A stretch of DNA of 64,000 nt, from the NCBI GenBank assembly GCA_023150295.1, contig JAKLLE010000005.1:18560-82559 (forward strand), read 5' to 3'. This stretch comes from Giesbergeria sp. GTDB lineage: Bacteria > Pseudomonadota > Gammaproteobacteria > Burkholderiales > Burkholderiaceae_C. The translations under genes and the position numbers were made by a program. Shown here one piece after another: positions 10,054 to 53,207 of the stretch. The number at the start of each line of letters is the position of its first letter. Position 1 is the first letter of the stretch. Below the pieces are notes generated by a model, which had not been told where the DNA came from, ran no database searches, and saw only the letters and a list, made by a program, of their open reading frames with translations.

Positions 10054-10138
10054 GCCCGGGTGGTGAAATTGGTAGACGCAGGGGACTCAAAATCCCCCGC
10101 CGCAAGGCGTGCCGGTTCGAGTCCGGCCCCGGGCACCA
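10054..10138 (+). tRNA. tRNA-Leu (anticodon CAA)
   Basis: An 85-nt gene including the encoded CCA. The acceptor stem GCCCGGG pairs with CCCGGGC before ACCA. The anticodon stem-loop GGGGA-CTCAAAA-TCCCC gives anticodon CAA, and GGTTCGAGTCC is the T arm. The long variable arm (CGCCGCAAGGCG) is of the leucine type. It sits 40 bp from the divergent cysM start and is followed by a terminator. The region beyond carries integrase remains, so this tRNA may have served as an attachment site. Confidence 0.97.
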
Positions 10139-10143
10139 CAGAC

Positions 10144-10184
10144 AAGGCCGGTAGCTTCCGCAAGCTTCCGGCCTTTTTCTTTTC
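10144..10184 (+). terminator. Rho-independent terminator of tRNA-Leu
   Basis: A 14-bp stem, AAGGCCGGTAGCTT pairing with AAGCTTCCGGCCTT (one mismatch) around a CCGC loop, followed by TTTCTTTT, starting 6 nt after the tRNA. Confidence 0.9.
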
Positions 10185-10250
10185 CCCTATGGGAAGTGGC
10201 TTCGACCAGTGCACAGACGTGCGCTGGAGTGTGCCGGAATCCAGGGGCAT

Positions 10251-10315
10251 GTGGGGGCACATTTGGGGGTGCATTTTCGGAATGTGGGGGTACATGGCCC
10301 CCATTCGGGGGTACA
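10251..10315. repeat. Four direct GGGGGYRCA repeats (arm-site-like)
   Basis: Four same-orientation copies of a short motif: GTGGGGGCACA (10251), TTGGGGGTGCA (10263), GTGGGGGTACA (10284) and TCGGGGGTACA (10305). They lie between the tRNA-Leu terminator and the toxin-antitoxin pair. Clustered short direct repeats next to a tRNA resemble the arm-type integrase sites of tRNA-targeting islands; the integrase fragment at 11669-11848 supports that reading. No protein-coding function is visible. Confidence 0.55.
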
Positions 10316-10396
10316 CAACGGGCCGTGACGCCTGGAGGGGCTTGATACTCAAACCTCAATCATGCCGCCCCAGCAGCAGAGATACCCGGAGCCACA

Positions 10397-10425
10397 TTGC
10401 AAAAAATACGCAATCTGCGTACACT
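10397..10425 (+). promoter_or_regulatory. Promoter and operator of the higBA-like operon
   Basis: A -35 TTGCAA (10397-10402) and -10 TACACT (10420-10425) are separated by exactly 17 bp. The spacer contains the perfect dyad TACGCA-ATC-TGCGTA (10407-10421), which overlaps the -10. This is the expected layout for autorepression by the XRE antitoxin. The start codon of the toxin is only 8 bp after the -10, so the transcript would be almost leaderless. Confidence 0.75.
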
Positions 10426-10432
10426 TTCGGCA

Positions 10433-10771
10433 ATGAAAGCTGTCTTTGTCGAGTTGCCCGCCTTCTCTCGTCATCGAGCCACCTGCTTGAACGATGAAGG
10501 TTTCCGTGGCCTTCAGGACACGCTCTTGAAGAACCCCGAGGCAGGTGATGTGATCGAAGGAACAGGCGGCCTGCGGAAGCTTCGGCATGGTGATCCGCGC
10601 CGTGGGAAAGGCAAGCGTGGCGGCCTTCGGGTGATCTATTACTGGTGGGATGGCGGCCCGCAATTCTGGCTGTTCACCCTGTACGACAAGGACGAAATGT
10701 CCGATTTGACGCCGGATGAAAAGAAGGCACTGAAGAACCTATTGAAAGCAGAACTGGAGGCACGCCGATGA
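10433..10771 (+). CDS. higB: RelE/HigB-family toxin of a type II toxin-antitoxin pair
   Basis: A 112-residue protein of the HigB/RelE superfamily, whose members act as ribosome-dependent mRNA endonucleases. The GTGGLRKLRHGDPRRGKGKRGG stretch followed by RVIYYW is characteristic of the group. The start was set at the ATG 10433 because the upstream alternative (TTG at 10397) is the -35 element. There is no good Shine-Dalgarno, which fits a near-leaderless message. Its stop overlaps the antitoxin start by ATGA. Toxin-first order is the HigBA arrangement. It belongs to the presumed island remnant beside tRNA-Leu. Confidence 0.85.
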   Translation: MKAVFVELPAFSRHRATCLNDEGFRGLQDTLLKNPEAGDVIEGTGGLRKLRHGDPRRGKGKRGGLRVIYYWWDGGPQFWLFTLYDKDEMSDLTPDEKKALKNLLKAELEARR

Positions 10772-11082
10772 GCAAGCGCAATCTGTTCGCAGAACTATCC
10801 GAAGGCTTTGAGGCCCTGGCCGATGAGCGCAAAGGCAAGAAGACTCTGCGCACGCATGAGGTGGAATCCAGGATTGCACCCGAGGTGACTGCAGCTGAGC
10901 TGCTCGCCCTGCGCGAGCGCCTGCATCTGTCGCGCCCAGTGTTTGCGGGGTATCTTCGCACCAATCCACGCACGCTGGAAAACTGGGAGCAAGGCCGTGC
11001 CAAGCCCAATGCCCAGGCGGCAGTGCTTATTCGCTTGGTCGAAAAGTTTCCAGATACGGTGCAGCGGCTGGCAACAGTCTGA
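10768..11082 (+). CDS. higA: XRE-family antitoxin (HigA-like)
   Basis: A 104-residue DNA-binding antitoxin partner of the preceding toxin. The C-terminal half is a Cro/CI helix-turn-helix (LRERLHLSRPVFAGYL..NPRTLENWEQGRAKPN, about 50-85). The ATG overlaps the toxin stop codon (ATGA), implying translational coupling. It probably represses the operon through the TACGCA-N3-TGCGTA dyad upstream of the toxin gene. Confidence 0.87.
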   Translation: MSKRNLFAELSEGFEALADERKGKKTLRTHEVESRIAPEVTAAELLALRERLHLSRPVFAGYLRTNPRTLENWEQGRAKPNAQAAVLIRLVEKFPDTVQRLATV

Positions 11083-11114
11083 AGTTTTCGCTGTCGAGCG
11101 GGATCAATGAGCTG

Positions 11115-11306
11115 ACCCTCCTCCACGTCGGTTCGAACAACCCACATGAAAGACGCGTCGGTCAGGTTTGGCGCCAGCACTTTGCCCGGCTCTGCTTCCT
11201 GCAGCGGGCAACGATCAAAACCCGATCAAGAGATCGCTACGGGCGCACCGTTGCGGATGCCCAGCCACCATAGCAGGATCAGGCCGCAGATGCGTGCGAG
11301 CAATAT
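11115..11306 (+). pseudogene. Decayed thermonuclease-like (SNase) gene fragment
   Basis: In one frame the DNA reads GQVWRQHFARLCFLQRATI and then RDRYGRTVADAQ, which aligns well with [12 protein letters not shown]...DRDHYGRTVARVQ in the intact SNase-family gene at 52776. An in-frame TAG interrupts at 11271-11273; after it QDQAADA matches GQDAAS-type sequence of the family, then the similarity dissolves. There is no start, the N-terminal third is not recognisable, and the fragment cannot encode a functional nuclease. I found this by eye; a translated search would confirm it. Confidence 0.62.
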
Positions 11307-11367
11307 GCAAGTTCTTGCAAGATGTCACAGCGCATGTAGGGTGCATCAACCCACCGAAGGAACCCCC

Positions 11368-11535
11368 ATGGCCTACCAACTTGCCGCAGGCCTGATGCAG
11401 TTGGGCGCCGCCCTGTTCCTGATGCCTTGGGCACTGGTGCTGCTGGGCACGGGCGCCCTGTTGCCACTGGCTCCATGGGGTGCAGGCATTGCCGTGCTGG
11501 GCTTCATCATCGGCCTGGCCAGCAGGGGCGCATAG
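11368..11535 (+). CDS. Small hydrophobic membrane protein of unknown function
   Basis: A 55-residue protein, almost entirely hydrophobic with two potential membrane segments (about 5-27 and 31-52) and a Gly/Ala/Leu-rich composition. The ATG at 11368 is preceded by GAAGGA at 7 bp, which is why it was preferred over the longer track ORF starting at 11146. I do not recognise the family; similar small membrane proteins are frequent next to mobile DNA. It sits between the nuclease fragment and the integrase fragment. Confidence 0.6.
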   Translation: MAYQLAAGLMQLGAALFLMPWALVLLGTGALLPLAPWGAGIAVLGFIIGLASRGA

Positions 11536-11560
11536 GCTGCTGGCGCAGTTGCGCACGGGG

Positions 11561-11848
11561 CTACCGCTCGCCCAGCAGTAGCGCCACCACCAGACGCAGC
11601 CACCACAGCGCCACACCCACCAACCCCAGCGGGAACAGCCCCACAAAGAAGCGCGGGGCCAGCGGCCCAAGGGTCGGGAAAATGTCGGCATCCAGTGAGG
11701 CCAGGATGCGCCGGGCCGTTTCTGCATCCCATCGGGCGGCCTGGTACTGGTGCCAGTCACGCGCCACGGCTTCAAAGGTGTTCACCGCTTCATGGGCCGC
11801 CTGTGCCTTGCTGGCCTTGCGCTGCTATCCCGGGTCGCCGTCATCCTG
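11561..11848 (-). pseudogene. P4-type tyrosine integrase remnant
   Basis: Read on the minus strand, 11848-11669 gives QDDGDPG, a stop, then QRKASKAQAAHEAV, NTFEAVARDWHQYQAARW and ARRILASLDADIFPTLG. This is the region around the core-binding domain of P4-family integrases (NTFEAVAREWH, LEADIFPALG). An in-frame stop lies near 11825. Homology ends at the PTLG, where the frame runs into an unrelated hydrophobic tail down to 11561 (the 74-aa track ORF). No catalytic domain (R-H-R-Y) is present. It is direct evidence that an integrative element once sat by tRNA-Leu. Confidence 0.75.
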
Positions 11849-11942
11849 CGGCCTTTTTCTTGTGCGATGGCACCAGATGCTGTCATGGGCACTACACTTG
11901 CCCTTGTTACAACCGGGTCACAACAATGCCAGGGAGGCCTGT

Positions 11943-12560
11943 GTGACCGATTTTGACCTCGCGTGGTTTCAGCGCATCAATGCCTCGGCCGATTCGGCGC
12001 AATGGATCGTCCACAGTGCGCTGTTCATCTCGAAAGGGCTTCCCCTGGTCGTGGCAGCAGCCCTGGCCGTGGGCTTTTGCCGGCGATCCACACGATCCAC
12101 CGCCGCCTCGGTGCTGGTTGCGATGGCGGTCACATGGTGCATCGTGCACTTGTTCCATGCCTTGGTGCCCCTGCCCCGTCCTGCCGCGCTGAACCTGGGC
12201 ACGCAGTGGATCGACCAGGGCAACCGCCCAGGCTTTCCCAGCATGCATGTGTCTGTGGCGTTTGCCATGGCTTCGGCGCTGTGGTTTCGGCACAGCCGCT
12301 GGGCGGTGGTGGCCTTGCTCCTGGGGGTGGCGATGGCCTGGTCCAGGGTCTGCATTGGCGTGCATTTCCCCAGGGATGTGCTGGCAGCGGCCCTGGTGGG
12401 CGCGCTGGCTGCGGGGTTCTCGGTACCGTTGCTGCAGCAGCTCAAGGCGCTGGCCGTGGGAGCCACAGCGCTGGCCCGCAGAGCCCGGGCAGTCCAAGGC
12501 GATTGCGGAACCACCCTGGTACCCGGCGCAGCGGTGACAGATGCGGTCGCCCGCCCTTGA
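11943..12560 (+). CDS. PAP2-family phosphatase (undecaprenyl-diphosphatase-like)
   Basis: A 205-residue integral membrane phosphatase. The three-part PAP2 signature is present: LPRP (about 81), GFPSMH (about 100) and SRVCIGVHFPRD (about 137-148, SRx5HxxxD). Several hydrophobic segments surround them. Related proteins dephosphorylate undecaprenyl pyrophosphate or other lipid phosphates at the periplasmic face. The track ORF is over-extended; the GTG at 11943 has AGGGAGG 5 bp upstream and gives a normal family length. The gene lies just outside the presumed island scar. Confidence 0.85.
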   Translation: MTDFDLAWFQRINASADSAQWIVHSALFISKGLPLVVAAALAVGFCRRSTRSTAASVLVAMAVTWCIVHLFHALVPLPRPAALNLGTQWIDQGNRPGFPSMHVSVAFAMASALWFRHSRWAVVALLLGVAMAWSRVCIGVHFPRDVLAAALVGALAAGFSVPLLQQLKALAVGATALARRARAVQGDCGTTLVPGAAVTDAVARP

Positions 12561-12628: not shown

Positions 12629-12641
12629 ATGGGTTGGCCGC

Positions 12642-52775: not shown

Positions 52776-53207
52776 ATGCCTGCCGCCGCCCTGCTCTGCC
52801 TGGTTGTCGCCATCAGCGACGGCGATTCCTTCACCGCGCGCTGCGGCAGCCCGGGCGCCTACGAGACGGTGCGTGTGCGTGTGGCAGCCATCGATGCACC
52901 GGAGCACAGCCAGCCCTACGGCCAACGCGCGCGCCAGCACCTGGCCCAACTGTGCTGGCGCCAGCAAGCGCGCATTACCCCCGTGGACCGCGACCACTAC
53001 GGCCGCACCGTGGCACGGGTGCAATGCCAGGGGCAGGACGCCGCCAGCACCCAGGTGCGCGCGGGCATGGCCTGGGTCTATGCGCCGCGCGCGCAGGCCT
53101 ACCCGCACCTGGCCCGCCTGGAGCGCCAGGCCCGCGCACAACGCTCAGGCTTGTGGGCCGATACAAACCCAACGCCGCCCTGGAAGTACCGCCATCGGCA
53201 ACAGTGA
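52776..53207 (+). CDS. Thermonuclease (SNase-like) family protein
   Basis: A 143-residue secreted or periplasmic nuclease-fold protein. VAISDGDSFTARC opens the OB fold; RVRVAAIDAPE carries catalytic Arg and Asp, PYGQRARQHL and DRDHYGRTVARV follow, and the C-terminal RAGMAWVY..LERQARAQRSGLW completes the staphylococcal-nuclease pattern. The N-terminus is hydrophobic (MPAAALLCLVV) and may be a short signal. A decayed relative lies at 11115. The track ORF from 52008 is too long. Confidence 0.88.
   Translation: MPAAALLCLVVAISDGDSFTARCGSPGAYETVRVRVAAIDAPEHSQPYGQRARQHLAQLCWRQQARITPVDRDHYGRTVARVQCQGQDAASTQVRAGMAWVYAPRAQAYPHLARLERQARAQRSGLWADTNPTPPWKYRHRQQ

Follow-up and report, generated by a model that had tools for sequence, protein, structure and literature searches.

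In P4-like elements, a hotspot for cargo genes adjoins the integrase (PMC8628076). With P4/CP4-57-like elements and P4-like satellites, the element family examined here shares a P4-type integrase, an AlpA-type regulator, insertion at the 3′ end of a tRNA gene, a length of ∼10 kb, a replication primase near the opposite end and variable toxin–antitoxin (TA) or defence cargo, whereas its primase is of the PriCT_2-Toprim-DUF927 type and the copy described below is a dead remnant. The TA pair on this remnant has its best solved relatives in HigB-2 and HigA-2 of Vibrio cholerae, a ribosome-dependent mRNase and an antitoxin that is also a repressor (PMC11006873). TA pairs stabilize the V. cholerae superintegron according to Iqbal et al. 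2015, as cited in PMC5906591, and PMC8978831 describes stabilization of a Shewanella tRNA-Trp island by HipAB. A natural plasmid was not stabilized by an Acinetobacter higBA2 module (PMC5906591).

Judged from sequence comparison, positions 10054–11848 of the window (the whole 64,000-nucleotide stretch analysed, on contig 76 of the 3.69-Mb Giesbergeria sp. genome G000) are the scar of a P4-type integrative element beside tRNA-Leu(CAA). The initial annotation was right on this main point, and its bounds are correct within a few bases. G+C is 0.56–0.60 from the start of the scar to ∼11.2 kb, against ∼0.64 in the surroundings. The scar is known in kind, an ordinary but well-preserved example of a common process. 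Its features and those of its right flank are as follows:

10054–10138, forward strand: intact tRNA-Leu(CAA), the attachment-site gene (ARAGORN, Rfam)
10139–10296, forward strand: the element's left end, conserved and including a terminator hairpin at 10144–10181 (alignment to Acidovorax defluvii L203)
10252–10316, forward strand: three evenly spaced TGGGGGYACAT-type arm repeats and a fourth copy
10397–10425, forward strand: higBA promoter TTGCAA-17-TACACT, overlapped by the palindrome TACGCAATCTGCGTA at 10407–10421 (sequence)
10433–10771, forward strand: intact gene for a HigB2-family toxin, 112 amino acids (PDB 5ja9, E 7e-28)
10768–11082, forward strand: intact gene for a HigA2-family antitoxin, 104 amino acids (PDB 5j9i, E 5e-24)
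11142–11261, forward strand: relic of a staphylococcal-nuclease-like (thermonuclease) gene (Pfam, phmmer)
11368–11535, forward strand: open reading frame for a 55-amino-acid hydrophobic protein (ORF call)
11567–11670, reverse strand: remaining 3′ portion of a small membrane-protein gene from the element, without its start and joined to the integrase piece (match to L203)
11656–11848, reverse strand: internal fragment of a P4-type integrase gene, about residues 69–133 of 401 (Pfam PF22022; DNA identity to intact integrase genes)
11847–11868, forward strand: right junction, with the chromosomal copy of the 3′ half of the tRNA terminator (G007 empty site, G012 right flank)
11943–12560, forward strand: PAP2 gene, outside the scar (missing at the site in G007 and G012)

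The docking end of the element is well preserved. ARAGORN and Rfam both confirmed the annotated tRNA gene, which is the integration site of full elements at loci L203, L115, L185, L201 and L202. L203 lies in Acidovorax defluvii DSM 12644 (QLTU01000003, a record flagged UNVERIFIED_CONTAM), the closest named record found with the element at tRNA-Leu(CAA), and its DNA is 89% identical to the window across the tRNA gene and left end. The left end is kept in 15 left ends adjoining tRNA-Leu, tRNA-Arg and tRNA-Thr; those of the family share a terminator as well as three copies of TGGGGGYACAT whose spacing is fixed, a layout to which the window is identical. The arm-like direct repeats of the initial annotation are also borne out: GGGGGYRCAY matches four times within 64 bp (at 10253, 10265, 10286 and 10307), and the spacing of the first three copies is constant in 14 other elements. 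As the whole 64-kb window holds only 7 matches vs 3.8 expected, four in so short a stretch are far above chance. In intact elements, a TGGGGGYACAT-type repeat is also present at the right, integrase end.

At the other end of the scar, the fragment annotated as a P4-type integrase proved to be one. The open reading frame at 11561–11785 (reverse strand) matched the integrase middle domain Phage_int_M (PF22022) with 34 bits (E 3.5e-8), above the curated Pfam cut-off of 27 bits, and the fragment was 91% identical in DNA over 197 bp to the integrase gene of the congener G012 and 84% identical to that of A. defluvii; the intact integrase genes of both relatives sit at tRNA-Leu(CAA). A complete catalytic domain is absent from the integrase in the window, of which only about residues 69–133 of 401 are left, with an in-frame TAG stop at 11825–11827. 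Directly joined to the fragment is the membrane-protein piece, 69% identical to L203 in amino acids and 79% in DNA. In L203, the membrane-protein gene lies ∼2 kb from the integrase part that adjoins it here; the join is a simple deletion. On its outer side, the fragment continues into TGCGGCCTTTTTCTTGTGCGAT, which is the chromosomal terminator half of the G007 empty site and the G012 right flank; the start of the integrase, the right arms and attR have therefore been lost. The attL side is intact in the window and attR is missing, which fits a decayed copy; attR is present in both G012 and L203. As neither an integrase nor attR is left, the scar should be immobile.

Empty and occupied forms of the same site occur in relatives. 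In our comparison of 27 genomes of the genus, the junction between cysM and tRNA-Leu was found in most, and the 1.8 kb of the window was missing in nearly all. The closest relative, G007 (92–94% identity), has 72 bp between the flanks vs 2.46 kb in the window and is an empty site; the island is also absent in G004, G022, G021, G013, G003 and G026. G012 has an occupied site, with an intact 401-amino-acid integrase at the far end of the element. Four genomes, each of another species (G009, G020, G010 and G019; loci L033, L035, L039 and L040, respectively), have left-end sequence of this element type beside tRNA-Leu(CAA) and then diverge; as they retain the left end alone, partial remnants recur at this tRNA. 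Because other P4-type integrases adjoin tRNA-Leu in G011, G005 and G001, this tRNA gene is a hotspot. The comparison of relatives proposed in the initial annotation thus found congeners with empty sites and full elements in G012 and A. defluvii; the contrary outcome, the same 1.8 kb in all relatives with no integrase homology, is excluded by the empty sites and by the homology seen in translated searches. In G012, two loci (L037 on C66 and L036 on C35) have different sequence after the same tRNA-Leu, from either tandem elements or mixed strains.

The right-hand anchor of the initial annotation did not hold. The PAP2 gene was rejected as a marker of the chromosomal backbone: neither G007 nor G012 has it here, and homology to the backbone restarts only beyond it, at 12641. 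It appears to be a separate lineage-specific insertion, unless it was lost in those two genomes. Its best match is ∼45% identical elsewhere in the genus and ∼50% in the family, with no close relative in 26 congeners, and the closest NCBIfam model, undecaprenyl-diphosphate phosphatase PRK11837, scored below its cut-off.

We are highly confident of an account in which a P4-type element of ∼10 kb entered tRNA-Leu(CAA) and decayed by deletions to a docking end, an integrase piece and higBA. The element would have inserted at the 3′ end of the tRNA gene by means of its own tyrosine integrase, encoded at the far (right) end, and successive deletions would then have removed nearly all of it. The window lacks primase and regulatory genes between its left end and higBA, and one deletion would have taken them, AlpA included; another would have fused the integrase gene after about residue 133 to the neighbouring small membrane-protein gene; and another would have removed the integrase N terminus, the right arms and attR, joining what remained to the chromosomal terminator at ∼11847. 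The product would be an intact, presumably self-regulated HigBA2-type operon, probably former cargo, together with the docking end on the left and an integrase fragment that is inert. The ends of the element, the deletions and their junctions, the empty and full sites and the intact TA genes with their operator can be read from the sequences, whereas the order of events, the cargo status of higBA, its toxin activity and the reason for its retention are inferred.

Between the TA pair and the integrase end lie further remnants. The decayed nuclease gene recognized in the initial annotation matched the Pfam SNase domain only at E 0.25, but phmmer searches of 150 genomes of the family returned SNase-like open reading frames up to 58% identical to the relic (E 8e-9), one of which holds recognizable SNase sequence. 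With ∼40 codons remaining, the relic has no intact SNase domain. Elsewhere in the window (∼52902–53024, forward strand) lies another SNase-like sequence, apparently intact and sharing ∼51% identity with the relic. As for the annotated tiny membrane protein, its open reading frame exists, but no homologue was convincing: the best match in 150 genomes had an E value of ∼0.006 or worse, and there was no match in Pfam, NCBIfam or PADLOC. Neither the relic nor this open reading frame was found in intact elements.

Both genes of the orphan higBA-like pair are intact and related to HigB-2 and HigA-2 of V. cholerae. The pair belongs to the HigBA2 type: both proteins are homologous to their V. cholerae counterparts over nearly their full length, the toxin gene comes first and the genes overlap. 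As in V. cholerae, a single inverted repeat overlaps the −10 element; this palindrome, the predicted operator, is kept upstream of eight homologous higBA loci. The predicted operator in the window is probably particular to its own branch, and the V. cholerae genes lie in a superintegron, whereas the window pair lies on an island scar. If expressed, HigB would, by analogy, be a ribosome-dependent mRNA-cleaving toxin held in check by HigA, which would also repress the operon. For higB, pN/pS against eight homologues was ∼0.13–0.27, and for higBA across homologues ∼0.13–0.43, values that describe the gene family and not the recent past of the window strain; they indicate purifying selection on the higBA family. 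In PADLOC, HigB and HigA matched no known defence gene, with just a weak helix-turn-helix match. Elsewhere, two HigBA2-type pairs lie ∼1 kb apart on one contig (L053, G015:C237, 6018–7981); they share 75% and 46% identity with the window HigB.

Was the pair cargo of the element or a latecomer? The A. defluvii element, which shares with the window the tRNA, the left end, the integrase and the membrane-protein gene, is complete with attR. In the place of higBA, and oriented alike, it has a TA pair of a different kind: a RelE-family toxin, 34% identical to the window HigB, and a BrnA-type antitoxin. For this reason higBA is probably element cargo. No close relative has higBA inside this type of element, however, so it could also have inserted independently, before or after the decay. 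That higBA, along with the SNase relic, arrived later or independently, as a mobile TA cassette inserting into a scar already in decay, is a genuine possibility, though not the reading that we favour. Its edges are sharp, with homology in the closest relatives running from 10401–10407 to ∼11082, and its relatives occupy unrelated contexts: copies elsewhere are 66–84% identical with no such integrase nearby, and none of ten related loci had this integrase close by, so that higBA homologues do not serve as markers of the element. The RelE/BrnA-type pair in the same slot of the intact A. defluvii element speaks against a late arrival, as do the PemK, Phd/YefM, AbiU2 and AriA-like genes in other elements of the family.

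Cargo status leaves aside why the pair persists. The initial annotation saw its retention as expected if the pair stabilizes the locus, and we keep such stabilization as a hypothesis. Both TA genes and the operator are intact amid broken element genes, and the V. cholerae superintegron and the Shewanella tRNA-Trp island are precedents for addiction. Nevertheless, the pair did not prevent the loss of the other element genes, the Acinetobacter higBA2 module is a precedent in the opposite direction, and the data fit retention by selection and recent arrival alike. We consider it rather unlikely that the pair was kept by actively stabilizing the locus, as opposed to having merely escaped deletion so far.

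Several integrase families use this site in the genus (G011, G005 and G001), which raises the question of whether the integrase fragment and the left end stem from different islands inserted in turn, making the scar a mosaic. This is improbable: left end, membrane-protein piece and integrase piece all match one A. defluvii element, at 79–89% DNA identity, and in the same order and orientation. Finally, nothing was found in favour of coincidental similarity, or of ordinary chromosome misread as an island; both can be dismissed given the Pfam E value of the integrase fragment, its close DNA match to a genuine integrase gene and the relatives with empty sites.

The decayed P4-type element thus belongs with a larger set of related ones. 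That of L203 spans 10.8 kb and is complete with right arms and attR; from tRNA-Leu(CAA) and the left end, it holds a 980-amino-acid PriCT_2/Toprim/DUF927 protein (primase), AlpA, the RelE-family toxin and BrnA-type antitoxin beside the integrase gene, the small membrane protein, a helix-turn-helix protein and the integrase. A further 11 full-length integrases were 70–82% identical to that of G012, itself 44% identical to phage P4 Int. Most lie at the far end of Comamonadaceae elements beside tRNA-Leu(CAA), tRNA-Arg(CCT) or tRNA-Thr(CGT), ∼5.5–12 kb (mostly 7–8.5 kb) from the tRNA gene. Integrase relatives in phage and plasmid records were all below 60% identity, and five IMG/VR contigs had integrases 60–80% identical. 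Cargo in related elements includes PemK, Phd/YefM, AbiU2 and AriA-like genes. Among the related elements (alignment A2, L115–L202), one open reading frame matched PADLOC AriA (E 9e-30) and one Pfam DUF4435; this suggests a PARIS-like defence system as the cargo of one related element.

Neither 78 open reading frames of related elements nor the main L203 genes had a Pfam match to psu, delta, epsilon or alpha (PF03288), four genes from the satellite list of PMC8628076, in which a further one, sid, is defined by a custom profile. As none of the four was found, we classify the element as a P4-type integrative element and do not assign it to the P4-like satellites. A non-exhaustive literature search found no description of this family. 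Tentatively, the scar may belong to a Comamonadaceae-wide clade of ∼10-kb elements, perhaps an undescribed satellite-like family in which loss of the TA module comes last. Such a clade might be marked, again tentatively, by the combination of a P4-type integrase, a PriCT_2/Toprim/DUF927 primase, AlpA in some members and three TGGGGGYACAT arm sites at fixed spacing next to tRNA-Leu, -Arg or -Thr; it would possibly also lack the P4 capsid-hijacking genes and carry exchangeable TA or defence cargo.

Overall, the locus offers a clean, dissectable case of an island decaying at a hotspot tRNA gene: within one genus the site occurs empty, full and as a scar, and the deletion junctions are legible to within a few bases. 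It is a setting for asking whether addiction or chance lets a TA pair outlast its element. A modest extra interest lies in the element family behind it: the scar is a lead to P4-type elements that are widespread in Comamonadaceae, share a conserved arm-site signature and have been little described.
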